Shown here: piece by piece, positions 8,829 through 35,409 of the stretch
Layout of the letters: the number at the start of each line of letters is the position of its first letter
Position numbering within the stretch: the first letter of the stretch is position 1
Assembly (NCBI GenBank): GCA_009927165.1
Contig: RFNO01000084.1
Location: 1-53,816, forward strand
Source of the DNA: Pseudomonadota bacterium
GTDB lineage: Bacteria; Bdellovibrionota; FAC87; UBA2466
Direction of reading: 5' to 3'
DNA length: 53,816 bases
Notes under the pieces: model-generated
Databases searched by the model: none
What the model saw: the letters and a program-made list of their open reading frames with translations, nothing else
What the model was told of the DNA's origin: nothing
Program-made: the position numbers and the translations under genes

Positions 8829-9206
8829 ATGGGACTGCACATTACTTTCAAAAACATTGAATCCACCGATGCCATCAAGAACTATCTGGAAAAAAAGGTA
8901 GGTAAGTTTCAAAAATACATCACCTACCCCATGGAAATTCATGCCATGTTGAGCGTTAGCCGAGGAGAGCAAGTCGTTGAGCTCACTTGTCACGCCGAAT
9001 ATCACGATATGGTAGCCACCGCAAAAAGCGATGATCTCTACGCCTCCATTGATCAAGCTGTTGTGAAAATCGAAACTCAGATGAAAAAGGAACGAGAAAA
9101 GAAAAAAGGTCACAACGCAGGCCACAAAGTTTCCCGTCGCGGAAGTAAATTAGCTACTGATGTCGCTCCAGATCTTCCTCATCAAGGCAAAGCCCGATCT
9201 CGATAA
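8829..9206 (+). CDS. hpf: Ribosome hibernation promoting factor, short form
   Basis: A 125-residue HPF/YfiA-family protein that binds the decoding region of the 30S subunit and inactivates ribosomes in stationary phase. It begins MGLHITFKNIESTDAIKNYL and carries the typical strand-helix pattern followed by a basic stretch (QMKKEREKKKGHNAGHK). It lacks the extra C-terminal dimerisation domain of long HPF. The ATG has a strong AAGGAG site. It follows rpoN by 83 bases. Confidence 0.93.
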   Translation: MGLHITFKNIESTDAIKNYLEKKVGKFQKYITYPMEIHAMLSVSRGEQVVELTCHAEYHDMVATAKSDDLYASIDQAVVKIETQMKKEREKKKGHNAGHKVSRRGSKLATDVAPDLPHQGKARSR

Positions 9207-9296
9207 TTTGATTGCGCCCTGCTCCACGCAACTTTCTAACGCGCGTAATTTTTTTTGACGCGTTCCTCTTGCTCTTTGTTAACAATCTGTCACACT

Positions 9297-9399
9297 ATTG
9301 GTAACCAGAGCATTTCACAAGAGAAATGATGATCTGGGGTAGTAAAATTCAAAGTTGAATTTTACTAATTTAGATTAACTCTGGTTGGTAGCTACCAAT
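9297..9399. promoter_or_regulatory. Structured leader or operator region before the porin gene
   Basis: This 103-base block ends just before the Shine-Dalgarno of the porin gene at 9417. ATTGGTA (9297-9303) is complementary to TACCAAT (9393-9399), and AACCAGAG (9303-9310) to CTCTGGTT (9379-9386), so the ends can pair around the central inverted repeat. TTGGTAGCTACCAA (9385-9398) is itself a perfect 14-bp palindrome, so two alternative folds compete for the same bases. I cannot say whether it acts as RNA or as a protein-binding site. Confidence 0.5.
9341..9366. repeat. Perfect 12-bp inverted repeat
   Basis: AGTAAAATTCAA (9341-9352) and TTGAATTTTACT (9355-9366) are exact reverse complements separated by two bases. 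This AT-rich palindrome lies 50 bases upstream of the porin start. Its two-base spacer is too tight for a normal RNA loop, so it looks more like a dimer-binding operator than an RNA hairpin. Confidence 0.65.
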
Positions 9400-9416
9400 T
9401 TCACGGAGACACAAGC

Positions 9417-10517
9417 ATGAACAAACATCTCAGTAGTATTAAAAAAACAGCAGTACTAGTGGCGGTGAGCTGGTTAGCCATTCCGGCTTTCGCTGGTATC
9501 GGGGGATTCATTGACACTCAAATCACAGACACCGAAAACACTAACCCTAATTCCGAAATCGCTGATGCAGCGGTTTATGTGACCAAAGAATTAGGCCGCG
9601 GCAAAATGGTATTAGACTTACCGTTTAGCTACACGGCTGCCAACGCCGAAGGCGTGATCCTAAAACAGGACCTAACGAGCTCGGGCTTAGGGAATTCAAC
9701 CAACGTTCGTCCCTATGCTACGGCTTTCCGTGCTTTCAACAAAAAAGCACAAGCCTATTTAAGCTGGGGCTATGACTTCGGATTGAACTGGCAATTGGGC
9801 CGATTCGATTCTCCGTTCCTGAACGAAGCTCAAGATACAGTAGGTCTTAACGCTCTTACCGAACAAGGACCTCTGTTCTTCGCTCTTCCCAATATGCACA
9901 ATGGGTTGATGCTGACTTATGCTGCTGGTCCTATGTCGGTAATGGCTCTTACTTCTAGAGCAGACGGAAGAGTGAGTGACAAAGCTAATGGAGAAAACCT
10001 CGAATGGGGAGTCCTTGCTAAATACGCTCAAGGCTCCATGTACGCAGGCGCAGGTCTTTACCTCCACAAGCCCAATACTGAAACACACTCCGTTGTAGAA
10101 GTGATGTTGGGAACCAAAATGTCGGACATCTCAGTGGATGCACAAGCGATCTTCACAAAACCAGCTAAAGCCGGTGCTGACAGCGGGTTTGGTGCTGGTG
10201 CGACCATTGGTTACCAACTCGACAAAATGTGGTCCTTCGCAGTTCGTCCTAACTACTTGAGCAAAGTTGCCTTAAACAATGGTAACGAAATTGCCCAAGT
10301 TGAAGTGGATACAGCAGCTGCAGGCGCTGCTTCTTGGCACGTAGGGGGTGGTGCATACCGCTGGTTCCAAGTCGCTGTAGGTCCTCAAGCTCAAGTGTCT
10401 GATGAACTGCGCATCCGCGCAAACTTCATCTGGGACAGCATAAAAGCTACTGAAAGCTTGGATGCTGTCAGCTCCAAGCTTGGACACTGTCTGCTGTCTA
10501 TAAGTTCTAAGCTTTAG
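9417..10517 (+). CDS. Porin-like outer membrane beta-barrel protein, apparent 3' frameshift
   Basis: A protein with a clean signal peptide (Lys-rich start, hydrophobic core, cleavage near PAFAG at residues 23-27) and amphipathic strands throughout, resembling a medium-sized porin. As read, the frame ends in SSKLGHCLLSISSKL, which lacks a terminal aromatic residue. Adding one base near 10481-10484 changes the end to LGTLSAVYKF followed by TAA at 10508-10510, a typical barrel C-terminal signal. I therefore suspect a one-base deletion (sequencing error or real mutation), most simply loss of one A in a GGAACA context. The start ATG has GGAGA upstream, and a strong terminator follows, so it is monocistronic. 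Confidence 0.85.
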   Translation: MNKHLSSIKKTAVLVAVSWLAIPAFAGIGGFIDTQITDTENTNPNSEIADAAVYVTKELGRGKMVLDLPFSYTAANAEGVILKQDLTSSGLGNSTNVRPYATAFRAFNKKAQAYLSWGYDFGLNWQLGRFDSPFLNEAQDTVGLNALTEQGPLFFALPNMHNGLMLTYAAGPMSVMALTSRADGRVSDKANGENLEWGVLAKYAQGSMYAGAGLYLHKPNTETHSVVEVMLGTKMSDISVDAQAIFTKPAKAGADSGFGAGATIGYQLDKMWSFAVRPNYLSKVALNNGNEIAQVEVDTAAAGAASWHVGGGAYRWFQVAVGPQAQVSDELRIRANFIWDSIKATESLDAVSSKLGHCLLSISSKL

Positions 10518-19922: not shown

Positions 19923-21314
19923 CTATCTCATTCTTAGAGCTGTGAGAAAACTGGCATAACTCCAAGTAAGGTCACGAGCGCCTTGCTGATAACCAGACCA
20001 ACGATTCATTTGTTCGGACATTTGACCATCAGAATCAGCATGAAACTTCACTCGCTCAAAATACTGGTCCCCTTCTTCCTGAAGCTTTTTCAAAACCTGC
20101 TCAAAAAGTGGCTCGGTTTTTCGGATTTTTCCCAAGGGGAAAGTAAAGCCCATTTCCTTAAAAAAAGAACGATTAAGTTGGGAGACAGTAATTTCACCTT
20201 TACTACGATACCTATTTCTTAGCTTATAAAAAAACTCAGCAAAGCCATTAGTAGCAAGCACCCAAGGATTGCCTTCTCCTTCCGAGGAATACCCATCGTA
20301 TTTATCCTCCGGATATCGCCCAATCCCGACTCCACGCGGACCCATTTGATTAGTGGCGTAGAGGGATTTAAATTTTTCTTTGAGCTTTAGCACCGTCGCC
20401 TGAACTCGCGGATCATCTACACCAAAAAAATCATCTGAACTAGCAGCGTGCAATACTCCCAAAATCACCGATGAATCTAAATTAGAATTTTTATACTCAA
20501 TTCCTCCCACCCGATTCAGAGTGCTTTGCAAATATCCTCGGCTTGAATCCCAAAATCGCTGTAACTCGGTTTCAAGATTCTTGGCACCAGCGGCATAGCT
20601 ATCGGAAGCAGAATTATCTCCCACTAAACCCATATAGGACGCTCCTTCTACCAGAGAGCGATACTGCACTAGGAGAGTATAGAAATGATGTCCTTTGATT
20701 TCTTCCCACAGATCAAAACAAGCATCTTTCCAGTGATGGAGAACATACTCTAAATCAAACTTAATAATGGAGGATAGTCTTCGCTGCTCTTCATACTTGC
20801 CTTCGGATAAAAGCGTTTTTGCAAACTGGATTAGGGTAAGCGCTCGGAGGGCGGGTCCGTCATTTTGGGGTCTTCCCCAAGGCCCCATGAAGACCGTTCC
20901 ATCTACATTAAATTTAGGTTCTCCAGGTCCACCACTAGGAGTTGCAGTTAATTGATTGGTTCTAGAGAAATCGATGTAATCCCAAATAAGATCGAGATAG
21001 TAGCTTTTTTGATTGGGATCTCCAGTGTTTCGGTACTGTTCAACAATAAACGACATGACTAGCGCTGCATCCCTCACCCAGTGGTACCAATAATTTGGAT
21101 TTATTTGTGAGGGAGAGGCCACCACCGCTCCTTTCGCTGCTCCGGGCGGAGATATATTTCTCAAGAGATTTTTTAATGCGACCTTTTCTTGGCGAGGGAG
21201 CCACTGCTCCAAAGGCAACGAACGAACGAGATTGTCGTTAGCTTGAATGGGGATGGTTAACACTGCAAATCCCAACCCTATCAATTTGGCAAAATTACCC
21301 AAAAAGAACTTCAC
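19923..21314 (-). CDS. Fungal-type GH15 glucoamylase, exported
   Basis: A 463-residue enzyme expected to release glucose from the non-reducing ends of starch- or glycogen-like glucans. It shows PNYWYHWVRDAALVM near residue 73, DLWEEIKGHHFYTL with the general acid at Glu-204, and near the C terminus SEQMN followed by ARDLTWSYASFLTA, which carries the catalytic base region. These match fungal glucoamylases better than the usual bacterial GH15 forms. I set the start at the GTG at 21314: AAGGGGG lies six bases upstream and the product then has a standard signal peptide ending near PIQA. A longer frame opens at 21368. Confidence 0.88.
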   Translation of the reverse strand: MKFFLGNFAKLIGLGFAVLTIPIQANDNLVRSLPLEQWLPRQEKVALKNLLRNISPPGAAKGAVVASPSQINPNYWYHWVRDAALVMSFIVEQYRNTGDPNQKSYYLDLIWDYIDFSRTNQLTATPSGGPGEPKFNVDGTVFMGPWGRPQNDGPALRALTLIQFAKTLLSEGKYEEQRRLSSIIKFDLEYVLHHWKDACFDLWEEIKGHHFYTLLVQYRSLVEGASYMGLVGDNSASDSYAAGAKNLETELQRFWDSSRGYLQSTLNRVGGIEYKNSNLDSSVILGVLHAASSDDFFGVDDPRVQATVLKLKEKFKSLYATNQMGPRGVGIGRYPEDKYDGYSSEGEGNPWVLATNGFAEFFYKLRNRYRSKGEITVSQLNRSFFKEMGFTFPLGKIRKTEPLFEQVLKKLQEEGDQYFERVKFHADSDGQMSEQMNRWSGYQQGARDLTWSYASFLTALRMR

Positions 21315-21415
21315 AGGTTTCCCCCTTAGGAGCAAAACCTTAACAAAAAAATAACCAGATGCGAACAAAAGTTCAGGAAAAAATTAGAGTTAATTGCATT
21401 GCGTCATCGCTTTGA

Positions 21416-23131
21416 TTATCCAGGAAAACGGCAGGTGAAAAGCGAACCCTGGCCGGGAGAGCTTTCGACCCAAACAGCCCCTTCGTGTCGCTGCATAATA
21501 TGCTTCACAATAGCCAGGCCTAAACCGGTTCCCCCTTGCTCTCGAGAGCGAGCTTTATCCACGCGATAAAATCTTTCAAAAAGGCGGCCTAAATGCTCAA
21601 CAGGAATCCCAGGCCCACTATCTTGAACCTTCAAAAAACAATCTTTGCCGCCTTTTCTGTCTAATTCCCAAGAAACCGTTATTTTTCCTCCTTCGGGGCT
21701 ATATTTACTCGCATTATCCAACAGGTTAATTAAAACTTGTTCCACTCGATTAGGATCGGCATTTACGGAAAGAGCTTCTACTTTCAATTCTGTTGCTTGA
21801 TGCTTGTTTTTAAATCGGGACTGCAGCTGCTTCAGGACCCTCTCTGTTATTTCCCGAGTGCTCATGATTTCTTTGTGAAGAAGCAAACTGGACTCCAATG
21901 CCGAAAGCTCGAGCAAATCCCCCATCAAATTCATTAATCGTTCAGCATTTCGAGCAATAATTGATAGAAACTCTCTTTCAGATTGGCCCCCTTTATTTTG
22001 ATCAAGATCCAACATCAAGGTTTCCGTATACCCTTTAATCGCCGTCAATGGAGTTCTCAACTCATGGGAAACGTTTGCCACAAAATCAATTCTCATCTGT
22101 TCTGCAGCTTTCAACTCTGTAACGTCATGAAAAATACCGAGAGCTCCGTAAATACTTCCCCCTTGCCGCCTAAGCGGCGACACGGAAAGGGAAAAATACC
22201 GTCGAGGCTGACTCTCAGTTTCAAGCGAAAATGCTCGGGTTCCACCCGAAAGTCCCTCAGATAGTGCTTTTTTATAGGCTTTTAAAATTTCCGGATCTCT
22301 CAGAATCTCCCAGAGTTTTGCATTTCGACGAACTTTCCCTCCGCCAAAAATCATTTCAAATCGGCTATTATAAAAAATGGGGACTTCGTCTTGATCTACA
22401 GCAAGAATGGCATCTGAAATCGCTCCCATGATAGCGTCTAACTCAACTTGCTCAGTGGTTAGACTCAGTACAGTGGACTCTAAATTTTTGCCTAAATCAT
22501 CGATGTTAGATTCTAAATCACACCACTCACCAAACGCCTCTTCCTCGAGATCGTCTTGTGTTAAGACTCGAGGATGGCGGGCCACCAGATTCTGAGTTTT
22601 CACTAGAAGTCGGCCTAGAGGAAACACCAGCTTACGCGCATACCAAAATGCAACCGCACATAGTAAAGTGGCCAATCCCAACAGATAAATTCCAAAAGAA
22701 GTATTATAGAGTCTTACAACAGCTCCGAAGTTATCAAGGCGTTGAGATGCCTTGATCACGAGATCTCTCTGCGGCACCGAAAGCGTAACAATCACTAGCT
22801 CGTCATGAGCTCTATTCACTTCGTCTTTTTCTCCGCAAATAGTTGTGCCATCTGACTTCAGCAAAGAGAGTTTAAACTGGGTTCCTTGTTGTGACTGTTC
22901 ACACCAACTCTCACTTAGCTGGTTGGGAAAATTAGAGCTAATCGTTTTTAATGTGTCTTGTAGTTGGCTCTGAACTTGATTAACGAAAGACCTTTTAAAA
23001 AAATAACGAGCTGCGAGCCCCGAAGAGCCAATGGAAACCACCACTAGCATGGCTTGAACAAAAGCTATTCGGTAAAATGTCCGCCACGGAAATTGTTCAG
23101 CCAAAATCTTCACAAAACTTCTCTTAATCAA
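21416..23131 (-). CDS. phoR: Phosphate regulon sensor histidine kinase
   Basis: A 571-residue kinase with two membrane helices (about 20-44 and 147-166) that enclose a periplasmic loop of about 100 residues, a HAMP-like linker, a PAS domain (~228-340), the dimerisation/phosphoacceptor helix with His-356 in NVSHELRTPL, and an ATP-binding domain with LINLLDNASKYSPEGG, DSGPGIP and GTGLGLAIVK. E. coli PhoR has almost no periplasmic loop, so the extra-cytoplasmic region here is notable. Its start overlaps the phoB stop by 8 bases. Confidence 0.93.
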   Translation of the reverse strand: MIKRSFVKILAEQFPWRTFYRIAFVQAMLVVVSIGSSGLAARYFFKRSFVNQVQSQLQDTLKTISSNFPNQLSESWCEQSQQGTQFKLSLLKSDGTTICGEKDEVNRAHDELVIVTLSVPQRDLVIKASQRLDNFGAVVRLYNTSFGIYLLGLATLLCAVAFWYARKLVFPLGRLLVKTQNLVARHPRVLTQDDLEEEAFGEWCDLESNIDDLGKNLESTVLSLTTEQVELDAIMGAISDAILAVDQDEVPIFYNSRFEMIFGGGKVRRNAKLWEILRDPEILKAYKKALSEGLSGGTRAFSLETESQPRRYFSLSVSPLRRQGGSIYGALGIFHDVTELKAAEQMRIDFVANVSHELRTPLTAIKGYTETLMLDLDQNKGGQSEREFLSIIARNAERLMNLMGDLLELSALESSLLLHKEIMSTREITERVLKQLQSRFKNKHQATELKVEALSVNADPNRVEQVLINLLDNASKYSPEGGKITVSWELDRKGGKDCFLKVQDSGPGIPVEHLGRLFERFYRVDKARSREQGGTGLGLAIVKHIMQRHEGAVWVESSPGQGSLFTCRFPG

Positions 23132-23822
23132 GGGTGTCAGCTACGCGATAACCCACTCCACGAATGGTCTCAACAAGATTAGCACAATCACCTATTTTTT
23201 TTCTTAAACCAAAAATGTGGGTGTCTATAGCTCTATCAATCACAGTAACGCCCTCCCCCTGAACCAACTCAATAAGTCGCTCACGAGTTAGCACGCGTCC
23301 TCTATTTTTCATCATCGCTAATAACAACTTGAACTCAGACGGAGTAAGTTCCACAACCTGATTATTACATTTAACTTCATGTCTTTCGGTATTAACTGTC
23401 AGCTTTCCTATTTGAATGATGGCATTACTTTGCGTCTCTGCTGAAGATGTGGCTCGCCTCAATAAAGCTCGAACTCTTGCAAGAAAAACAGAGATGTCAA
23501 AGGGCTTGGTAATGTAGTCATCAGCTCCCATTTCCAGACCCAGAACTATGTCCGCGGTTTGCGCACGGGCAGTAACCAACAAAATGGGAATAGCTTGCAA
23601 GGGTCCATTTTCGCTTCTGATTTTTTTGCAAATATCTAGTCCCGATATTCCTGGCAACATCCAGTCGAGAATAAGAAAAGAAAAATTTTGCTGCCCCAAA
23701 AGGGCAAAAGCTTGTTCTCCATTTTCGGCCACTTCAACTTCAATGCCATCTCGTCGTAAGTGCAGTGACATCAAATCGGCAATGTCTTTCTCGTCCTCAA
23801 CAATAAGCACCTTATTTTTCAT
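23124..23822 (-). CDS. phoB: Phosphate regulon response regulator
   Basis: A 232-residue OmpR/PhoB-family regulator: receiver with acidic pocket VEDEKD, phospho-acceptor Asp-53 in ILDWMLPG, the conserved Lys in ADDYITKPFD, and a winged-helix DNA-binding domain with ELTPSEFKLLLAM, RVLTRERLIELVQG and RAIDTHIFGLRKKI. I use the ATG at 23822; a TTG one codon earlier is closer to the AAGGGA site and may be used. It overlaps phoU upstream and phoR downstream. Confidence 0.95.
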   Translation of the reverse strand: MKNKVLIVEDEKDIADLMSLHLRRDGIEVEVAENGEQAFALLGQQNFSFLILDWMLPGISGLDICKKIRSENGPLQAIPILLVTARAQTADIVLGLEMGADDYITKPFDISVFLARVRALLRRATSSAETQSNAIIQIGKLTVNTERHEVKCNNQVVELTPSEFKLLLAMMKNRGRVLTRERLIELVQGEGVTVIDRAIDTHIFGLRKKIGDCANLVETIRGVGYRVADTLD

Positions 23823-24501
23823 CAATTTCTGTTCCCTTCTTTCTCATTTGGGTGTGTCGAATATCTTTTCCCGAAACCGTAAAAATAACATCTTCTGCGA
23901 TATTAGTAGCGTGGTCTCCAATGCGTTCCAAGTTTCGAGCAATCAAAATGACATTCAGGCCCTGTTCAATATCCTCAGGAGTTTTCTTCATGTGAGCAAG
24001 CACATCGTGAAAAACCTTGTCTTTGAGTTCATCCACTTTATCATCAGCTTCCATTACAGCTCGGGCAAGCTGCACATCCTCATTCAGAAACGAATCAATG
24101 GCCTGTCTGACTGACAGTCGAACTCTATCAGACATTGATACGAGATCATTTAAATCTGAAAATGCCGGGTGTTTGAGATAATACTCAGTATTTCGAGCGA
24201 TATTCACTGCTTGATCAGCCATTCGTTCGATGTCCGTATTGATTTTCACTACGGATAGGATGAATCGGAGATCGGTTGCAAGGGGTTGCTGAGTGGCCAG
24301 GAGTTTAAGACAAGCAGCATCTACTTCTACGTGCTCTCTATTTACACGTTCCTCAATCTGATTTACGCGGTCAATCATTTCTCGGGACCGATTTCTCCAA
24401 GCCAAAGTAGAATCTTTGACAGCTTCCTCAAGATAACCCGCCATTCCTATGATTTTGGCTTTTAGTTCACTTATTCCAATGTCGATACTTCTCTGAATCA
24501 C
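23812..24501 (-). CDS. phoU: Phosphate signalling protein PhoU
   Basis: A 229-residue protein with two repeated three-helix bundles carrying the metal-binding patterns DxxxD/E ([11 protein letters not shown] and [11 protein letters not shown]) and the repeat sequences [16 protein letters not shown] and [17 protein letters not shown]. PhoU couples the Pst transporter to PhoR and restrains signalling when phosphate is ample. The GTG start overlaps the pstB stop (GTGA), so expression is coupled. Confidence 0.95.
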
Positions 24502-25259
24502 CCGAATTTCCCCGTAATGTATTGTTCAGTTTTCTTCTCTTTGGGCACCGTAAATAAACTGCTTGTATCCCCAAATTCTATCAGCTCTCCCAAGAGAAAA
24601 AAGGCTGTTCTATCAGAGATACGAGCTGCTTGTTGCATATTATGAGTAACCATAATAATGGTAATATCTTTCTTCAGCTGAACCACTAGCTCCTCAATTT
24701 TAGCAGTCGAAATAGGATCTAATGCGCTTGTAGGCTCATCCATCAACAGAATGGGCGGCTCTACTGCCAAAGCACGTGCAATACAGAGCCTTTGTTGTTG
24801 GCCCCCTGATAGACTGGTTCCTGCTTTGTCTAACTTATCTTTTACTTCTTCCCACAAAGCAGCTTGTCTCAAGCTTTTCTCTGCCACTTCTTTTAAAACG
24901 CTTTTTCGCCGGATTCCAGCAAGCTTCAAACCCGCTACGACATTGTCAAACACTGACAGAGCAGGAAAAGGATTGGGCTTCTGAAACACCATCCCGACTT
25001 TACGACGAATCAATACGGGGTCTACATTTGCATCATAAATATTTTTACCCTGAAGAAGTACTTTTCCTGATGCACTGGCCCCGGGAACTTCTTCATGCAA
25101 TCGATTTAAACAACGCACGAAAGTTGATTTTCCACAACCAGAAGGACCAATTAACGCAGTTACTGAGTGAGAAGCAACGTTTAAATCAATGCTCTTTAAG
25201 GCTTGGTGCTCTCCAAACCAAGCACAGAGGCCTTCAACTGACAAAATATCATCCGGCAT
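24498..25259 (-). CDS. pstB: Phosphate ABC transporter ATP-binding protein
   Basis: A 253-residue ATPase with Walker [10 protein letters not shown], the Pst-specific [15 protein letters not shown] stretch, Q-loop VFQKPNPFP, signature [15 protein letters not shown], Walker [14 protein letters not shown] and the switch [12 protein letters not shown]. It energises phosphate import through PstA and PstC. It begins directly after the pstA stop. Confidence 0.96.
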
Positions 25260-26144
25260 TTAATCCCTCGTTCCCAAAGCAGTCGGCTTCACTAACCAGC
25301 GAGTCCCTAAATTCAAAACAAACACAAAAATCACCAAAACAAAAGCCCCTGCCCAAGCCTGTTGGTTCCATTCATCAAATGGCGCAATCGCATAGGTGTA
25401 AATTTGTACCGGAAGCGAAGCCATTGGTTGCGTAGGGTTCAAGTTAAGAAACCGATTATTAAGTGCCGTAAAAAGAAGAGGCGCTGTTTCTCCCGCAACT
25501 CTAGCAATCGCCAACATCACCCCTGTCGTAATTCCCCCTAAACTTCCTCTCAACACAATTCGCAAAATGACTTTCCAACGGGGAATCCCTAAAGCTAGGC
25601 CAGCCTCTCGAAGATGATTCGGAACTAACTTCAATAGTTCTTCGGTGTTTCTTGCAATAATAGGAATCATAATTAGGGCAAGGGAGGCCGCTCCAGCAAG
25701 GGCAGAAAACCCGCGCATCGGTTTAACGATTAAAACATAAATAAAAAGACCCACAACAATCGAAGGAACAGAAGCCAACATGTCAGCAGAAAAACGCACT
25801 AAAAAAGCAAACTTTCCGCGGCCATACTCAGAAAGATAAACTCCCGTGAGAATTCCCCAGGGGATTCCCACCACGCTTCCCAAAAAAACCATCAATAAAG
25901 TTCCCAAAAAAGCGTTGAACATTCCTCCCCCGGTCTCTCCCACCGGCTTAGGAAGACTCAATAAAAAATCTAAATTCACATGGGGAAGCCCTTTCCAGAT
26001 TACGTAACCGAATACGGAAATGAGACAACTGGCTGCGGCTAACGCTGATAAACTCAATAGAAATGAAATGAATAAACTTAAAAGCTTTCGTCGTTTGTAT
26101 CGGAGATGCGTGAAATCTCTTATTTGCCCCCGCAATGAACTCAT
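25260..26144 (-). CDS. pstA: Phosphate ABC transporter permease PstA
   Basis: A 294-residue inner-membrane permease with about six helices, a periplasmic loop typical of the family (GGGMFNAFLGTLLMV), and the coupling motif EAGLALGIPRWKVILRIVL. I use the ATG at 26144, which overlaps the pstC stop as ATGA and has AGAGGAAG five bases upstream; the frame opens 11 codons earlier at 26177 without such a site. Confidence 0.94.
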   Translation of the reverse strand: MSSLRGQIRDFTHLRYKRRKLLSLFISFLLSLSALAAASCLISVFGYVIWKGLPHVNLDFLLSLPKPVGETGGGMFNAFLGTLLMVFLGSVVGIPWGILTGVYLSEYGRGKFAFLVRFSADMLASVPSIVVGLFIYVLIVKPMRGFSALAGAASLALIMIPIIARNTEELLKLVPNHLREAGLALGIPRWKVILRIVLRGSLGGITTGVMLAIARVAGETAPLLFTALNNRFLNLNPTQPMASLPVQIYTYAIAPFDEWNQQAWAGAFVLVIFVFVLNLGTRWLVKPTALGTRD

Positions 26145-27130
26145 TTTAGCTTCCTCTGAGAGCGCGTTACGCGCCAAACTAACAATCTTGCCAAACTGCT
26201 GGTCACAAAAGTAACCACAAACAGGATGAGTCCAACTAGAGCCAGGGAGGAAAGATGTAAATCACTGGTGGCCTCTGCATATTCATTTGCAATAACACTC
26301 GACATGGTTTGAGCTGGCGCAAATAATGAAGCCACAATCTGTGCTCGATTTCCAATGACCATCGTAACAGCCATGGTTTCTCCCAATGCTCGCCCCAATC
26401 CCAGCATCATTGCACCAAACATTCCCGCTTTGGAACTCTCCAAAACAGATAGCTTCATCATTTCCCAGCGAGTGGCGCCCAAAGCAAGAGCCGCTTCACG
26501 CTGACCTCTGGGAATAGCGGCAAACACTTCTCTGGAAATAGAAGAAATAGTGGGAATAATCATCAAAGATAGGATGAGGCCCGCAGAAAACAACCCCACA
26601 CCATAGGCAGGCCCTTCGAAAAGGGGAAAAAAACCGAGCTTTGAAATGAGCCAGGGCTGGAGATATTCGCGCAAAAAAGGGACCAGTACAAAAACCCCCC
26701 AAAGCCCGTAAATAACACTAGGAATAGCTGCCAGCATTTCAACTAAAAAACCCACGATTCTTCCAATGGCAGCGGGAGCAAGCTCGTTCACAAAGAGTGC
26801 GATGCCAATACTGAGTGGAAAGGCTATTATTAAACTGAGTACTGACGAAACCAATGTTCCATAGACCACTGGCAGGGCTCCATAAACCTCTTTGACAGGA
26901 TCCCAGACCGAAGTGGAAACAAAAGAAACTATTCCAGAAGAACGAATGGCCAGTGATGAAGCATTCAACAGGAAGAGTCCCATCGAAACCAGTAGACCAA
27001 CCAACAGAAGAGCAATCAATCGAGTTATCCAGAAGAACACGCGATCTGCAAAACGAACATCTTTTCGCAAGATGATCTTTTCAAAAACACTCGTATTTTG
27101 ATTGTTCATAGGGAGTGGAGATGACTTCAT
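26141..27130 (-). CDS. pstC: Phosphate ABC transporter permease PstC
   Basis: A 329-residue permease: first helix near residues 30-55, the segment YGALPVVYGTLVSSVLSL, the coupling loop REAALALGATRWEMMKL, and a final helix before the Arg-rich C terminus. I place the start at the ATG at 27130, with GAGGG four bases upstream and 7 bases after the pstS stop. A TTG at 27148 would add six residues and overlap pstS. Confidence 0.93.
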   Translation of the reverse strand: MKSSPLPMNNQNTSVFEKIILRKDVRFADRVFFWITRLIALLLVGLLVSMGLFLLNASSLAIRSSGIVSFVSTSVWDPVKEVYGALPVVYGTLVSSVLSLIIAFPLSIGIALFVNELAPAAIGRIVGFLVEMLAAIPSVIYGLWGVFVLVPFLREYLQPWLISKLGFFPLFEGPAYGVGLFSAGLILSLMIIPTISSISREVFAAIPRGQREAALALGATRWEMMKLSVLESSKAGMFGAMMLGLGRALGETMAVTMVIGNRAQIVASLFAPAQTMSSVIANEYAEATSDLHLSSLALVGLILFVVTFVTSSLARLLVWRVTRSQRKLK

Positions 27131-27137
27131 TCCACCC

Positions 27138-28160
27138 TCATTTTCCAATTGTTATCGAATCAATAGCTGTTTCAATTTTCTTCACAAGAGCCGGTGGCAA
27201 CGGAGCATATTCAAGAGCAGAAGCTTTTGTCTGACCTTCATGCATGGCCCACTTTAAAAACCGAACAAGAGCAGGTCCTTTTGCATCTACTGACATCGTT
27301 TGCCTAATTAAAAGATAGGTATAAGAGCTGATGGGATAGCTCCCTTTTCCTGAAGCATTTGTAATCGAAGTACGAAAATCAGTTGGCATTTTACTGAGCT
27401 CGGCCAAAGCGGCATTAGTTAATGCTTTCAGACTTGGCTCAACAAACTCCCCCTGACTATTCTTAATTTGTGCTACTGCTAACTGATTTGTTTTTGCATA
27501 AATGAATTCAACGTAACCGATACTGGCTGGAGTTTGCTTGATCAGTCCTGCGACTCCTTCATTTCCCTTTCCCCCAAGACCCGCCGGCCAATTTACGGAA
27601 GTACCTGCGCCTACTCTTTCCTTCCAAGCAGGGGAGACTTTTGAGAGATAATCTGTAAAAACGCCTGTCGTTCCACTCCCGTCAGAGCGGTGAACAACAA
27701 CAATATCGGTTTTGGCTTTTAGGCCTGGATTGATTTTAATGATCCGAGGATCATCCCACTTTTTGACTTCGCCCATAAAAATTGCAGAGATTAGTTCTGG
27801 AGTTAGCTTCAAATCTCTCTCACCGGGCAAATTGAAACTCAGCACAACTGAACCAATGGCGGTGGGAATATGAAGAACTGGCTCTCCCAATTTTTTCAGC
27901 TGCTCATCGGTCATAGGACTATCGGTAGCACCAAAATCCACCGTTCTATCGGTAAACTGGCGAATTCCTCCTCCACTACCAATAGACTGGTAATTAATCT
28001 GCGTATCGGGGGCTACTAGGCTGTAATCAGAAAACCATTTGGAATATAGAGGATAGGGAAAAGTTGCTCCTGCTCCGTTAATCAGAATGCTTGCTGATAA
28101 CAAAGTTTTGGAACTCAGAGCGAATAAAAGCCCGAACCAAGTTTGTCTTAATTTTGACAA
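27138..28160 (-). CDS. pstS: Periplasmic phosphate-binding protein PstS
   Basis: A 340-residue exported binding protein. The signal peptide ends near LLSA, and the mature start INGAGATFPYPLYSKW, SIGSGGGIRQF, DFGATDSPM and RSDGSGTTGVFTDYL are the phosphate-contacting family motifs. The start is TTG at 28160 with a perfect GGAGGT four bases upstream. It is the first gene of pstSCAB-phoU-phoB-phoR. A 9-bp direct repeat pair upstream could be part of its control region. Confidence 0.96.
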   Translation of the reverse strand: MSKLRQTWFGLLFALSSKTLLSASILINGAGATFPYPLYSKWFSDYSLVAPDTQINYQSIGSGGGIRQFTDRTVDFGATDSPMTDEQLKKLGEPVLHIPTAIGSVVLSFNLPGERDLKLTPELISAIFMGEVKKWDDPRIIKINPGLKAKTDIVVVHRSDGSGTTGVFTDYLSKVSPAWKERVGAGTSVNWPAGLGGKGNEGVAGLIKQTPASIGYVEFIYAKTNQLAVAQIKNSQGEFVEPSLKALTNAALAELSKMPTDFRTSITNASGKGSYPISSYTYLLIRQTMSVDAKGPALVRFLKWAMHEGQTKASALEYAPLPPALVKKIETAIDSITIGK

Positions 28161-28205: not shown

Positions 28206-28241
28206 TAAAGATTTGGCTCTACTTGGTGTGTTAAGATTTGG
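28206..28241. repeat. Direct repeat pair upstream of pstS
   Basis: AAGATTTGG occurs exactly at 28208-28216 and 28233-28241, and the match extends to 10 of 11 bases (TAAAGATTTGG and TTAAGATTTGG). The period is 25 bases. It lies 46-81 bases upstream of the pstS start on the minus strand, a position suitable for an activator. It does not match the E. coli Pho box. Confidence 0.45.
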
Positions 28242-28267
28242 TTAGGGAGTTACCGAAAACTCGCCCT

Positions 28268-29638
28268 CTATTTTTGTTGTATTTTCAACAACTTAGAATC
28301 ATAGTTTTTTAGGATCGCTGAACTTGGGGCAAGATGGCCCTCGTGGTGGGACTCTATTAATTCTTTGTAAAAAATAGCTGATGGGCGGATAGTTCTGTTG
28401 AACGTCTGATAATCTACTTCAATAAGTCCAAAGCGTGGTCTGAATCCTTTAATCCACTCAAAATTATCTAGAAGCGACCAATGAAAATACCCACGAATAT
28501 CAGCTCCATTATCTATTTCTTTCGCAACTTCTTTTAAATGATTTAGCAAAAAAGAAGAACGATACGTGTCCTGACCATCCGCAATGCCATTCTCAGTAAT
28601 GAAAATGGGAAGACCGTACTGATTAATAGACCTCAACATTCGCCCAAGGCCAGAGGGATGGAAGCCCCACCCCATTTCGGAAATCGGCTCTTGATTGGAA
28701 CTAAAACTAATTCCAAATGGAAGTCCAGATGCTGTTTCATAAGTTTCGCTTTTAGGTCGCCATCGTAAAATAGCTTTCGAGTAATAGTTAATTCCGATAA
28801 AATCTGTCGTGGTTCGTCCACCAGCCGAACTCACAGGCCGACTGAACGGAACTAAACCGGTGATCCCGAACCTCTGTTTTCTTCCGGTCGTCGCGTCCAG
28901 CCAACTAAAATTGTAAAATTCTCTGGCTATCAAGGTCAGTAGTCGATCCAGAGGGTGCCAATCACGAGAAGGCATAAAGTCCATCATGTTGTGCGCGTAG
29001 CCGACCAATAACTTTTGATGACGCCAAGGTCCTTTTCTGGTCTTATTTTCAGAATGAATCAAATCGTAGGCTTTTACATGGGATTTCAAAATGCTTCGAA
29101 ACGCTAAGGAGCATTTTTCTGGACTGTAGATTGCTGGTGGCTGGAATCCTGCAAGATACTGTCCTACACAAAAAATGATTGGCTCATTAAAAGTGCACCA
29201 AAGAGGAATACGATTACCCAAGGTTCTCACCACTTTCCTCACAAATGGAAGGAATTTTTGAGAAGCCTGCGGGGATGAAAATCCACCTTCTTCCGCAAAC
29301 CAGAGCGGAGAAGTAAAATGGTGAAGAGTTACCAGGGGAATTAAACTATTTCGCTCACACTCGCCCAAAAGCTCTCCATACCATTCAATCGCTTCGTTAC
29401 TCCAACTCCCCTCTTCTGGCTCAATTCGAGACCACTCAATAGAAAAACGATAGGAGTTTAATCCTATTTCTTTAGCAAGCTTGAGATCCTCTTTAAAAAG
29501 ATTCCAGTGATCAGTTGCCCGACCGCTTCTAACTCCACCTTCAATTTTTCCTTTTTGCTCCCAAGCCCACCAGTCATTAAGCTTATTATTTCCTTCAACT
29601 TGGTGACTACTCGTGGCTGCCCCCCAAAGAAACTTCAC
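28268..29638 (-). CDS. GH1 beta-glucosidase
   Basis: A 456-residue retaining glycosidase without a signal peptide. The acid/base Glu is residue 152 in TFNEP and the nucleophile Glu is residue 349 in FITENG; QVEG near the N terminus and HWSLLDNFEW near the C terminus complete the glucose pocket. I place the start at the GTG at 29638, which overlaps the upstream stop as GTGA and has GGAGGG nine bases before it; the frame opens earlier at 29695. The overlap with a lipid-glucosyltransferase-like gene suggests a glycolipid or glucoside substrate, which is inference. Confidence 0.92.
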   Translation of the reverse strand: MKFLWGAATSSHQVEGNNKLNDWWAWEQKGKIEGGVRSGRATDHWNLFKEDLKLAKEIGLNSYRFSIEWSRIEPEEGSWSNEAIEWYGELLGECERNSLIPLVTLHHFTSPLWFAEEGGFSSPQASQKFLPFVRKVVRTLGNRIPLWCTFNEPIIFCVGQYLAGFQPPAIYSPEKCSLAFRSILKSHVKAYDLIHSENKTRKGPWRHQKLLVGYAHNMMDFMPSRDWHPLDRLLTLIAREFYNFSWLDATTGRKQRFGITGLVPFSRPVSSAGGRTTTDFIGINYYSKAILRWRPKSETYETASGLPFGISFSSNQEPISEMGWGFHPSGLGRMLRSINQYGLPIFITENGIADGQDTYRSSFLLNHLKEVAKEIDNGADIRGYFHWSLLDNFEWIKGFRPRFGLIEVDYQTFNRTIRPSAIFYKELIESHHEGHLAPSSAILKNYDSKLLKIQQK

Positions 29639-30777
29639 TTTGCTATTCCCTCCAACAATCCACCCGGTAAAAGCCGGTAATCTTTTCCTCTCCAATCAAC
29701 CGTATTACCTAAAAGAATGGCCAGCCAAATTGGAATCGCGATTACTTCCCTGACCCACCAAGCCAAGATCAATTTCCAAGAAAACTGGTCAATGAGGCTG
29801 CAAAGAAAAGAATCCATTATCCACCATGCGGTCATATGTATGGTCCAAGCTAACCCAAAATGAAATCCAAACCATTGGCTGATAGCCAAAGCAAAAAACA
29901 GACTTGTGACTGACGAAAAAAACAACGGCTCGATTATAAAAGCAAGCGGTGCGATCGATTTTCTGATTCTGCCCCAGCGAATATGTCGTTTCCAGAAACT
30001 AGAAAACGAATAGTGCCCTAAGTATTGACGAACAGGTGACCGCATAATCTCTACTTTGAGATCAAGTTTTTTCATCGCATGTCCTGTCATGTAGTCCTCG
30101 GCGATGTATCCACTTAACGTTTTCAGTCCTCCAAACCGCTCTAATGTGCTCCGTTTAAACAGCATAGATTTTCCAACAACACTCTCGAAACTAAAGACCC
30201 GAGCTAAAAACATCCACCGAGCAAAGAAAGTATTCAAATAGCTAGCTTCAAGATATCCCCCTAACCCGTTAGGGTGAGTACCCGCTACGACTGCGGTGAT
30301 AACTCCCACATCAGGTGTCAGATCAGGCACCAGGTTTCTTAAATAATCTGGAGAAACACGAATATTGGAGTCACTAATTAACACAACATCATGAGTTGCT
30401 AGTTTATAACTCGCGAGAAGATTATTCACTTTAGGGTTGGGACCAACTTCTTGATTACTGATGATTAATTTTGCATTAACGTTGGGATACTTTTCTAAGA
30501 GAGGCTGTATCAAAAGAGCTGCAGGATCATTTGGACTTGATACTGAGAATAAAATCTCAAATCTTGGATAATTCACATGAAAACAACTCTCCAGATTTTC
30601 GTGGAGTCCTGGATCCACTCCCTTCAGTGGCTTGAGAATAGAAACGCTTGGCAAATCATCATCAGGAATCAGGCGAACTTTTGAAGTAAACTGCTTAAAC
30701 GCTAACCAAGTTCCCCATCCGTTGATGAGCCAGTTCAACCCCGCCATAGTAAGTCCGCTGAGGATGATAAGACTCAC
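29635..30777 (-). CDS. Ceramide-glucosyltransferase-like glycosyltransferase (GT21/HpnI type)
   Basis: A 380-residue membrane glycosyltransferase: N-terminal helix, VSILKPLKGVDPGLHENLESC, the metal-binding acidic pair in ISDSNIRVSPDYL, the catalytic-site AEDYMTG, the (Q/R)xxRW-like motif RHIRWGR, and three or more C-terminal helices. GT21 enzymes put glucose or a related sugar on ceramide or other lipids, and the hopanoid-associated HpnI is a relative; the acceptor here is unknown. The GTG at 30777 has GGGAGGT eight bases upstream, so the 83-base overlap with the upstream PHP gene appears real. Confidence 0.88.
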   Translation of the reverse strand: MSLIILSGLTMAGLNWLINGWGTWLAFKQFTSKVRLIPDDDLPSVSILKPLKGVDPGLHENLESCFHVNYPRFEILFSVSSPNDPAALLIQPLLEKYPNVNAKLIISNQEVGPNPKVNNLLASYKLATHDVVLISDSNIRVSPDYLRNLVPDLTPDVGVITAVVAGTHPNGLGGYLEASYLNTFFARWMFLARVFSFESVVGKSMLFKRSTLERFGGLKTLSGYIAEDYMTGHAMKKLDLKVEIMRSPVRQYLGHYSFSSFWKRHIRWGRIRKSIAPLAFIIEPLFFSSVTSLFFALAISQWFGFHFGLAWTIHMTAWWIMDSFLCSLIDQFSWKLILAWWVREVIAIPIWLAILLGNTVDWRGKDYRLLPGGLLEGIAK

Positions 30778-31471
30778 GTCGCTTGACCTCCCGATAAAAA
30801 AAGAACTCTAGTTTCTGTTTCTTAATTGCTTCGAAAATAGCGTCTTGCCGTCTTTCACAACGGAGAACAGTTTTCCAAGAGGTCATATTTCGTTCCTGAT
30901 GAAAATCACTGTTGGCTATTACAGGCAGCCCCGATCGTCCTACTTCGTCAAAAAGATAAGGACCACTGGCAACCTCCCAAGCATCAACTTTGTTACGCAA
31001 GCCCTCTCTCCTATCCCAGAGGTGATAAGTTTGTTTTTCAAGTTTTTGAGTAGAAACAGGATGAGCCGCAATGACTAATCCCCCTTTTGCTCTCACTTGA
31101 TCACTGGTTTCCGTAATATCCTTATTGGGGTCAATTCCTTCCAATTCGCCTAACACTAAAAAATGGGCTGAACGGTGGTTTGAAATAGAGTTCTTAGTTA
31201 TTTCAACCCCGGGAATGAGCATCATTCCATACTGCTCCCAAGCACGCGCTTTTTCAGTTTTTAAAAGCTCACAGTAGATTGGAAAAGTAGCGCGGTTGAG
31301 AGTCACTCCCAAGTAAGTTGATGCTTTTCCTATTAAGGAAGTGTCCTCACAAAAGTGATCCGTAATTGCGATAGCACCAAATTCTCTTTTACCAAAATAA
31401 TCTACTAAGGCAGGAATACTCAGTTTTCCATCACTAAAATTTGAGTGAATATGGAAATCAGCCAAATACAT
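30695..31471 (-). CDS. PHP-domain phosphoesterase
   Basis: A 258-residue stand-alone PHP protein with the metal-site motifs DFHIHSNFSDG, ITDHF, PGVEIT, AAHP and NSDFH in the right order. Such proteins hydrolyse phosphoesters (for example 3',5'-nucleoside bisphosphates or histidinol phosphate). No signal peptide is seen. The last 28 codons overlap the next gene in another frame. Co-occurrence with GT21 and GH1 genes just upstream of pstS hints at phosphorylated lipid or sugar substrates, but that is inference. Confidence 0.88.
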   Translation of the reverse strand: MYLADFHIHSNFSDGKLSIPALVDYFGKREFGAIAITDHFCEDTSLIGKASTYLGVTLNRATFPIYCELLKTEKARAWEQYGMMLIPGVEITKNSISNHRSAHFLVLGELEGIDPNKDITETSDQVRAKGGLVIAAHPVSTQKLEKQTYHLWDRREGLRNKVDAWEVASGPYLFDEVGRSGLPVIANSDFHQERNMTSWKTVLRCERRQDAIFEAIKKQKLEFFFYREVKRRESYHPQRTYYGGVELAHQRMGNLVSV

Positions 31472-31542
31472 TTGTATTTAGTTTGATCCCAGATTTTTAA
31501 GCCCCTATTAGGAAAATTTTAGGAATCCGTTAGGTCAATGGT

Positions 31543-32769
31543 CTAACGCAGGAATACAAAGGCTAGAAAAGCGGTGATCGCTAAAAAAACAGAACCAGTC
31601 CAAAAAGGAAGTCCCGGATAAATCTGAAATAATATTCCTGATACAGAGGGTCCCATGACTCGTCCCAATGCAGCAAGAGATTGTCCCAATCCCAAAGACC
31701 CCCCTTGTTCATCGGGATCAACTGATCGAGAAAGAAGACTCGATAACGAAGGATGAGTAATTCCCGTCCCACAAGCCATCACAACTGCCACCAAAAGCAT
31801 GTACGAATAAATACCAGACCACCCAATGAGGGGAATGAGGAAAAAACTAATTGCTACCAATAGTGGGCCGACCGCCAAAAGTTTCTTTTCCCCAAAATTT
31901 TTAGCTAATTTTCCAATAAAATAGCCCTGAACCAGTGTGGCAGTAACTCCCACCACTACCAACATGTATGCTGTGAGACTAGCAGCATGCTTGTTTTCAA
32001 AGTCACTGCCCAAACTACCGGCCGGAATCCAATGATGTTGAATAAATAATCCCAGTACGTTCTCCATCATTGAAAAAGAAGCAGAAAAAATAAGATACAT
32101 AAATAAAATATAGCCCACATGAGGATGACGGGCGGCATGTTTGAGTGCGGCCCAAGAAAGACGGGGACGAACTGTCGATTGAATTTTCTCGCTAGGAGAA
32201 ACTTGTTTCACCGGATTTGTTTCGGGAAGTTTGATAAAAGCGAAAATCCAATTAAAAGCAGATAGTGCAGCTGCAACAAGCGCCGGAGCCTCAAGCCCGA
32301 ATTTAACGAATAAACCTCCCAAAACCGGACCGAAAATAAACCCTAAACCAAATGCCGCTCCGATGAGGCCCATTCCCTTAGCCCGATTCTCTTTGTCGGT
32401 GCTATCGGCAATGATGGCTTGAGCAGTACCAATATTAGCGCTTCCCAATCCCGATAGCATGCGAGCTAGAAATAAAACTAAAAGACTCCGGGAAAGACCA
32501 AAGAGAAGATATCCTCCTGAAGTGAGGGCGATGCTCACGAGCATAATAGGCCTCCTGCCTACCCTATCTGAAAGTCGCCCCCAAAAGGAACCAAACAGGA
32601 ATTGCATTGTAGAAAAAGAAGCTCCTAAAATAGTGATAACGGCGGGGGTAGCTCCCAGCTTCTGTGCATAAAACGGTTGAATCGGGATTAAAATTCCAAA
32701 GCCAATCAGATCGAGAAAAACAGTAAAAAAGACCAAACCTAAAACAGATTTTTTAGACGCTTGTGCCAT
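31543..32769 (-). CDS. Major facilitator superfamily efflux transporter (TetA-like)
   Basis: A 408-residue, twelve-helix transporter. It has the DHA1 antiporter motifs: DLIGFGILIPIQPFYA in helix 1, the loop-2/3 motif GRLSDRVGRRPIML, ARMLSGLGSANIG in helix 4, and GPVLGGLF in helix 5. The family includes TetA and multidrug exporters; the substrate cannot be predicted. It ends 71 bases before the PHP gene start and begins 15 bases after the queG stop. Confidence 0.9.
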   Translation of the reverse strand: MAQASKKSVLGLVFFTVFLDLIGFGILIPIQPFYAQKLGATPAVITILGASFSTMQFLFGSFWGRLSDRVGRRPIMLVSIALTSGGYLLFGLSRSLLVLFLARMLSGLGSANIGTAQAIIADSTDKENRAKGMGLIGAAFGLGFIFGPVLGGLFVKFGLEAPALVAAALSAFNWIFAFIKLPETNPVKQVSPSEKIQSTVRPRLSWAALKHAARHPHVGYILFMYLIFSASFSMMENVLGLFIQHHWIPAGSLGSDFENKHAASLTAYMLVVVGVTATLVQGYFIGKLAKNFGEKKLLAVGPLLVAISFFLIPLIGWSGIYSYMLLVAVVMACGTGITHPSLSSLLSRSVDPDEQGGSLGLGQSLAALGRVMGPSVSGILFQIYPGLPFWTGSVFLAITAFLAFVFLR

Positions 32770-34389: not shown

Positions 34390-34422
34390 TTTCCCTTAGG
34401 GTTGTGGTTAGGGTGTCGGCCT

Positions 34423-35409
34423 ATGCCAAACGCTCAAAAACCGAAATCAGTATCAGATTTTCTCGAAACCCATTACCGCCATTTTAATGCAGCTGCTTTA
34501 GTTGATGCGGCCAAAGGATATGAGAAACATCTCAAGTCGGGCGGACCCATGCTGTTGGCGATGGCTGGAGCGATGTCTACAGCTGAACTCGGAATTTCTC
34601 TGGCGGAGATGATTCGCCAAGGAAAAGTACATGCTATTTCATGTACGGGAGCTAATCTGGAAGAAGATATTTTTAATTTAGTAGCACATGAACATTATGT
34701 GCGGATTCCAAATTATCGCGACTTGACTGCTCAAGACGAAAGAAGACTATTAGATAAGCATCTTAATCGAGTCACAGACACTTGTATTCCAGAAGAAGAA
34801 GCAATTCGTCGTATCGAAAAGGCAGTGCTTGAAGAGTGGGTTAGTGCTTCAGAGAAAAAAGAGCGTTTTTTCCCTCATGAATTTTTATTTCGAATTTTAA
34901 AATCAGGGAAGCTAAAAGAATACTATCAAATTCCACCTGAGCACAGTTGGATGATAGCTGCCGCGGAAAAAAATATTCCCGTCTTCGTTCCTGGCTGGGA
35001 GGACTCCACTCTTGGGAATATATTTGCTGCCCGGGCAATCGAGGGAAGGCTAAATCCCCTTACTATGAAAAGTGGCATTGAATATATGATTAGCCTCTCC
35101 GAATGGTATCAAAAAGACTGTCGTAAAGGCCCAGGAATTGGATTCTTTCAAATTGGAGGAGGAATTTCCGGAGACTTCCCGATTTGTGTTGTACCAATGT
35201 TAAACCAGGACCTTTTGAAAAACGTTCCCTTCTGGGGATATTTTTGTCAGATCAGTGATTCCACCACAAGTTATGGTTCTTACTCGGGAGCAGTTCCCAA
35301 TGAGAAAATCACTTGGGGCAAACTAGACTCAACTACGCCTAAATATATTATTGAATCAGATGCCTCCATTGTAGCACCCTTAATTTTTGCTTACTTGTTA
35401 GGATGGTAA
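34423..35409 (+). CDS. Deoxyhypusine-synthase-like protein
   Basis: A 328-residue member of the deoxyhypusine synthase superfamily. It shows LLAMAGAMSTAELG, ISCTGANLEEDIF, VFVPGWEDSTLG, GGGISGDFP and near the C terminus NEKITWGK, where Lys-300 matches the catalytic Lys that forms the enzyme-imine intermediate. Bacteria lack eIF5A, so bacterial members are expected to make or use polyamines (homospermidine-type chemistry) or modify another protein. I start at the ATG at 34423; an earlier ATG at 34402 adds seven residues. The 3' end overlaps hemH by 19 bases, convergent. Confidence 0.88.
   Translation: MPNAQKPKSVSDFLETHYRHFNAAALVDAAKGYEKHLKSGGPMLLAMAGAMSTAELGISLAEMIRQGKVHAISCTGANLEEDIFNLVAHEHYVRIPNYRDLTAQDERRLLDKHLNRVTDTCIPEEEAIRRIEKAVLEEWVSASEKKERFFPHEFLFRILKSGKLKEYYQIPPEHSWMIAAAEKNIPVFVPGWEDSTLGNIFAARAIEGRLNPLTMKSGIEYMISLSEWYQKDCRKGPGIGFFQIGGGISGDFPICVVPMLNQDLLKNVPFWGYFCQISDSTTSYGSYSGAVPNEKITWGKLDSTTPKYIIESDASIVAPLIFAYLLGW

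Follow-up and report, generated by a model that had tools for sequence, protein, structure and literature searches.

Three overlapping genes in a genome of Bdellovibrionota encode a phosphoesterase of the PHP family (PHP), a membrane glycosyltransferase of family GT21 and a beta-glucosidase of family GH1, and a complete pstSCAB-phoU-phoBR set follows them on the same (minus) strand. The genes lie on contig RFNO01000084.1 of assembly GCA_009927165.1; this contig, 53,816 nucleotides long and referred to here as the window, is one of the 137 contigs of a 2.47-Mb genome. Our analyses make it very probable that the PHP-GT21-GH1 operon is Pho-regulated. The interpretation that we favor, with moderate confidence, is that the three genes form a Pho-regulon cassette for the synthesis of phosphorus-free glucosylceramide, in which GT21 is of the type of the ceramide glucosyltransferase UGCG and PHP takes the place of the phosphoesterase PlcP. 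An earlier note on this DNA had described three overlapping genes of these kinds just upstream of pstSCAB-phoU-phoBR, and both statements hold: the minus strand carries all three open reading frames (ORFs), with their families confirmed by Pfam and NCBIfam models, and pstS, recognized by TIGR00975, is followed by pstC, pstA, pstB, phoU, phoB and phoR. The elements on which the argument depends are as follows, in window coordinates.

31517..31533, minus strand: Pho box before PHP, CTAACGGATTCCTAAAA, detected with a pstS-trained matrix, 62 bp before the PHP start codon
30695..31471, minus strand: PHP-family metal-dependent phosphoesterase, TM0559-like, 258 amino acids (PF02811, match to 2anu, metal-site residues)
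29635..30777, minus strand: GT21 membrane glycosyltransferase of the UGCG type, 380 amino acids (PF13506, match to 26qf, tree, motifs, model)
28268..29638, minus strand: GH1 beta-glucosidase of the BGPh type (PF00232, match to 1vff, catalytic motifs; GTG start at 29638)
28229..28245, minus strand: Pho box before pstS, CTAACCAAATCTTAACA, a training site of the matrix and a perfect match to the Pho pattern

The overlap between PHP and GT21 is 83 bp long; that between GT21 and GH1 amounts to 4 bp when GH1 is taken to start at GTG 29638. This codon is preceded by GGAGG and is backed by homologues; the TTG at 29695 that begins GH1 in the ORF list probably makes the protein too long. The gap between the end of GH1 and pstS is 107 bp.

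Regulation by phosphate was assessed with a Pho-box matrix of 17 columns, built from 12 sites that were collected across the phylum and came from pstS promoters only. In relatives, the pstS and PHP promoters carry CTAAC-type half sites repeated at 11-bp steps. When both strands of the window were scanned, the two best sites were the pstS box at 24.7 bits, which belongs to the training set, and the PHP box at 17.3 bits, which does not; the next, unrelated site reached 11.4 bits. A second register before PHP, shifted by 11 bp (31506-31522), overlaps the first. Across 32 genomes, 27 PHP promoters scored above the 95th percentile of controls, which were 168 intergenic promoters taken from the same loci (Mann-Whitney p 3e-14; some of the PHP promoters had already been viewed before the alignment of pstS sites was fixed), and 27 exceeded the 99th percentile of shuffled sequences. 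Of these high-scoring boxes, 25 of 27 lie at −37 to −68 from the start. They are conserved wherever the genes sit, even when the operon is far from pst. The top-scoring control promoters include those of a PAP2 phosphatase, a type I phosphodiesterase, ppk and phoB, indicating that the matrix behaves as a real Pho-box finder should. Only three perfect matches to the Pho pattern occur in the whole 2.47-Mb genome, those of pstS and PHP among them, with a pattern that had been loosened to let the PHP site in. The link to phosphate proposed by the earlier note is thus borne out by the Pho box that precedes PHP here and in most relatives, and by the recurrence of pst, phoBR and ppk as neighbors.

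Two further scans added little. Allowing one mismatch in the Pho pattern yielded 12 matches genome-wide versus 8 for a reversed-pattern control, and we rejected this list as an uninformative description of the regulon, relying on the perfect matches and the matrix instead. A scan for sigma-70 promoters and terminators found promoters no more commonly than in shuffled sequence.

The earlier note also had the three genes running into the pst operon. The adjacency is real, but pstS has a Pho box of its own (28229-28245), found at the same place in relatives. There are therefore two predicted phosphate-responsive promoters, one before PHP and one before pstS, and read-through from the trio into pst is possible. 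The genes around the trio are the following.

31543..32769, minus strand: MFS transporter (PF07690), a conserved upstream neighbor outside the Pho-boxed operon
27138..28160, minus strand: pstS, phosphate-binding protein (TIGR00975, 385 bits versus a cut-off of 205)
26141..27148, minus strand: pstC (ORF and conserved order)
25260..26177, minus strand: pstA (ORF and conserved order)
24498..25259, minus strand: pstB (ORF and conserved order)
23812..24501, minus strand: phoU (ORF and conserved order)
23124..23825, minus strand: phoB, response regulator (ORF and conserved order)
21416..23131, minus strand: phoR, sensor kinase (ORF and conserved order)

The MFS gene was considered as a member of the operon and rejected, as no Pho box was found before it and the PHP box lies downstream of it.

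The named relatives that we retrieved are metagenome-assembled genomes (MAGs), labeled mostly as Bdellovibrionaceae, Oligoflexia or Deltaproteobacteria. The order MFS-PHP-GT21-GH1-pstSCAB-phoU-phoBR is kept in all three members of the genus (g1) examined, and PHP-GT21-GH1-pstSCAB-phoU-phoBR is kept in a distant MAG (L108) whose GT21 is 46% identical. Because all three genus members and this distant genome share it, the arrangement is not due to chance. Other layouts occur as well. In G003, PHP and the pst operon diverge where the contig ends; the contig that holds GT21-GH1 opens with 11 bp of overlap and continues PHP in frame. The trio follows phoBR at locus L118, and the trio or a pair of its genes lies beside the polyphosphate genes ppk, ppx or both at L123, L106, L113 and L109. 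In G009 and G012, in which pstS was not found, GH1 alone stands between the MFS gene and phoBR. Overall, phosphate genes occur within approximately 10 kb in about 8 of 16 evaluable lineages versus an expected 3% or so, for a binomial p near 5e-9 that is rough and rests on our own lineage count. The question raised by the earlier note, whether the trio adjoins pst elsewhere, can be answered positively for the genus and for L108, and negatively for several loci that have no phosphate neighbors.

One relative, G007, carries a 38-residue remnant of the GH1 C terminus directly before pstS (L166, ~8604-8717; E 7e-5). It is a fossil of the GH1-pst adjacency in a genome that has lost GH1.

The identity of the GT21 enzyme is central to the proposed product. 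The protein matches PF13506 with 164 bits, and its best solved relative is the ceramide glucosyltransferase 26qf (E 9e-67, 37% identity over 346 residues), which we take to be human UGCG from its name and its length of 394 residues. A tree of 30 rows, only one of them eukaryotic, separates the Bdellovibrionota sequences and UGCG from both the HpnI clade and the alphaproteobacterial GT21 clade with a support of 96/96; identity is 37% to UGCG versus 24-29% to HpnI and the alphaproteobacterial GT21s. The D1, D2, D3 and (Q/R)XXRW motifs are all present, as DSN, AEDY and RHIRW, and the protein has the YIAEDY motif and a C-terminal GG as in UGCG. A Foldseek search with the predicted model (predicted local distance difference test score, 89) returned general GT-A membrane synthases only, with UGCG entries not among the matches listed. 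Human UGCG differs in that the GT21 described here is bacterial, is encoded in an operon and has a predicted activity.

In the same tree, human UGCG is placed among the Bdellovibrionota GT21s and not with the other bacterial clades, on a long branch whose exact position is unsettled. This placement bears on the origin of the eukaryotic glucosylceramide synthase, and the bacterial sequences are available for comparison on that question. Two variants of the gene were seen in relatives. In G010 (L094, ~8983-9934), the GT21 gene beside PHP is fragmented by stops or frameshifts, which reflects decay or an assembly error. The genus member G002, which has the full trio, also carries a second, divergent GT21 (L119:9848-10999; 44% identical) without PHP or GH1.

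A ceramide acceptor would have to be made by the cell. The genome carries, in a row, genes for a serine palmitoyltransferase (SPT)-like protein, a GNAT-like protein and an SDR protein. Bacterial ceramide synthase and ceramide reductase are GNAT and SDR proteins, and from these families and the gene order we take the GNAT protein to be ceramide-synthase-like and the SDR to be ceramide-reductase-like. The best solved relatives of the SPT-like protein are SPTs at 413 bits, with the next class at 299, and it scores below the curated NCBIfam SPT cut-offs. The GNAT gene is present in 14 of 14 genomes of the same family that were examined. No clear Pho box was found at the SPT cluster, where the best site, at 8.4 bits, was left uncounted. 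Spt, bacterial ceramide synthase and ceramide reductase have been named as a three-gene pathway (PMC11334938), and Bdellovibrio is listed among sphingolipid producers (PMC9278070). In Caulobacter, ceramide is glycosylated under PhoB control, and ceramide itself is made at many phosphate levels (PMC6445935). With GT21 grouping with human UGCG and a ceramide-synthesis gene set in the genome, the earlier note's description of a ceramide-type enzyme is upheld, and these gene contents make ceramide the likely acceptor of GT21.

The PHP protein is harder to assign to a substrate. It matches PF02811 with an E value of 3e-6 and the NCBIfam CehA/McbA model with 66 bits, under the cut-off of 80. Its closest relative is TM0559 of Thermotoga maritima (2anu), with an E value of 1e-43 by sequence, rank 1 by fold and 36% identity; the two share the same single-domain PHP fold, and the His, Asp and Glu positions of the PHP metal site are conserved. 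TM0559 itself has no assigned function and hence gives no hint of the substrate. Gene position is the best clue to the role of PHP, which in Bdellovibrionota occupies the place that PlcP has elsewhere.

The comparison with PlcP comes from known systems. Most knowledge of bacterial lipid swapping driven by phosphate comes from PlcP paired with Agt or Pgt, and from Caulobacter. The Pgt enzymes of Agrobacterium and Mesorhizobium are GT21 proteins (PMC3972451), and plcP lies directly upstream of pgt-type transferase genes (PMC4796936); a Pho box has been predicted for Agrobacterium pgt. On plasmids of Fuscovulum, Pannonibacter and Gemmobacter, the gene before GT21 either overlaps or abuts it and encodes a calcineurin-like phosphoesterase that carries the annotation UDP-2,3-diacylglucosamine diphosphatase, although the two that were scored reached 36-50 bits versus a cut-off of 134 for that model. 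The PlcP-Pgt and PlcP-Agt systems of Alphaproteobacteria, SAR11 and marine roseobacters resemble the operon described here in that an intracellular phosphoesterase gene is followed by an overlapping lipid glycosyltransferase gene in a Pho-boxed operon, and in PlcP-Pgt the glycosyltransferase is likewise a GT21. They differ in that the phosphoesterase is calcineurin-like there and a PHP here, that GT21 here is of the UGCG clade, and that a BGPh-type GH1 is added in an operon often set on pst or polyphosphate operons. The Caulobacter enzymes Sgt1 and Sgt2 share ceramide glycosylation under PhoB control, here predicted from the genes; they were selected as GT4 proteins and act in series, adding hexuronic acid and then hexose, in contrast to a single GT21 with GH1. 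The earlier note had contrasted the trio with the usual PlcP/Agt pair. LpxH was indeed the only PlcP-like match found in the genome, but as Pgt illustrates, a GT21 under Pho control is not in itself unusual. The cassette is a variant of phosphate-driven lipid remodeling and not a new category; its distinguishing features are a GT21 of the UGCG-type subfamily, a PHP where PlcP would stand and an added GH1. We found no published pair of a PHP and a ceramide glucosyltransferase in the open-licence literature.

GH1 matches PF00232 with 281 bits. Its catalytic motifs TFNEP and TENG are intact, including both catalytic glutamates, and by motif it is predicted to be a retaining glucosidase; no signal peptide is evident. 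An assignment as 6-phospho-beta-glucosidase was rejected, as its scores against the 6-phospho models are far under their cut-offs and the O4/O6-binding position is occupied by DNFEW. The closest solved structure is BGPh of Pyrococcus horikoshii (1vff; 328 bits versus 267 for the next), with which GH1 shares the SSHQxEGNNxxNDWW signature, BGPh being archaeal and thermophilic. BGPh is membrane-associated and has a strong tendency to hydrolyze long-alkyl glucosides (PMC4687101). This kinship and these substrates fit an action of GH1 on a glucolipid.

The favored glucosylceramide cassette would operate as follows. Upon phosphate starvation, PhoB would bind the 11-bp repeats before PHP and turn the operon on along with pst. 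PHP would act as a phosphatase or phospholipase-C-like enzyme, freeing phosphate, and perhaps a lipid acceptor, from a phosphorus-bearing lipid. GT21 would transfer glucose from UDP-glucose to ceramide, supplied by the SPT/ceramide-synthase-like/ceramide-reductase-like cluster elsewhere in the genome, and the resulting glucosylceramide would replace the phosphorus-bearing lipid. At the inner membrane face, GH1 may trim the lipid's glucose or remove it. The idea, present in the earlier note, that GH1 may hydrolyze the GT21 product and would then make remodeling reversible is attractive but conjectural. In its fullest form, PHP would be a new Pho-induced lipid phosphoesterase replacing PlcP, whose target is possibly the head group of a ceramide-based phospho- or phosphonolipid; the UGCG-type enzyme would re-cap the lipid with glucose and GH1 would deglucosylate it when phosphate returns. 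We regard this scheme as tentative and rather doubtful; if true, it would represent a reversible, sphingolipid-based phosphorus-sparing cycle. More generally, these Bdellovibrionota, with genes for ceramide synthesis and a UGCG-like enzyme encoded in a Pho-boxed operon, provide candidates for bacterial glucosylceramide synthesis (GT21) and for a lipid phosphoesterase (PHP), together with a Pho-box matrix applicable across the phylum.

Several observations weigh against the glucosylceramide cassette or parts of it. No phosphate neighbors are present at loci L105, L114, L116, L117, L119, L120 and L121, and the genomes compared are related, which makes them look more independent in the promoter statistic than they are. 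A Pho-boxed PHP is also found without GT21; its role thus need not be tied to glycolipids, and it probably serves in phosphate scavenging independently. Many PHP-GT21 pairs have no GH1 next to them, GH1 being the least conserved of the trio, and driving a synthase and a hydrolase from one promoter would create a futile cycle. Finally, Pgt, also a GT21, prefers diacylglycerol (DAG) over ceramide (PMC3972451), showing that membership in the family does not fix the acceptor. It is therefore possible, though we doubt it, that the same Pho-controlled cassette makes glucosyl-DAG, with PHP producing DAG in the manner of PlcP and GT21 glucosylating it like Pgt or Agt. Such a role for PHP would supply a step for which the genome offers no PlcP-like enzyme beyond LpxH; the alphaproteobacterial plasmids have their GT21 after an overlapping PlcP-like phosphoesterase, in the layout of PHP-GT21, and PHP is present, too, in genomes lacking the ceramide-synthase-like gene. 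Nevertheless, GT21 falls in the clade of UGCG and not in that of the PlcP-linked enzymes, and the ceramide-synthesis gene set is present. A hopanoid acceptor is practically untenable: GT21 would be HpnI, transferring N-acetylglucosamine to bacteriohopanetetrol in a coincidental phosphate neighborhood. HpnI is the best NCBIfam match, but its score of 251.6 bits is below the cut-off of 310 and HpnI proteins form a separate clade with 24-28% identity. Squalene-hopene cyclase (TIGR01507) is absent from the genome, a MAG of which a few percent is missing, and no confident cyclase was found in 15 relatives. We ruled out HpnI on the score, the tree and the missing cyclase.

The trio might also be a catabolic or envelope set lying beside pst by chance, with GH1 digesting glucosides from prey or diet and GT21 and PHP unrelated to phosphate. 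GH1 families act mostly on soluble glucosides, the kin of this organism include predators, and several relatives lack phosphate neighbors. However, the Pho box directly before PHP is conserved even far from pst; pst, phoBR or ppk neighbors recur in different layouts; and GH1 has no evident signal peptide and, within the conserved set, no dedicated sugar transporter next to it. We thus consider this explanation very unlikely. Plants have a GH1 protein, SFR2, that acts as a glycolipid transglycosylase, and by analogy GH1 might extend the GT21 product by another sugar. This would be compatible with its intact catalytic glutamates and might avoid the futile cycle. Its closest solved relative BGPh is a hydrolase (PMC4687101), and we give transglycosylation very little credence.

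Elsewhere in the genome, a phospholipase-D-like gene (L174:4922-6175; G000:C68) has a Pho box of 22.2 bits approximately 80 bp upstream (L174:6255-6271). This box is a near match to the genome Pho pattern, and the gene is likely, from this putative site, to be a further member of the Pho regulon. In the window, a GH15 glucoamylase-like gene (19923-21368) follows phoR, a position kept in the genus and in G009 and G012. The window also contains a gene of the deoxyhypusine-synthase family (34402-35409; PF01916), a family best known from eukaryotes and archaea.

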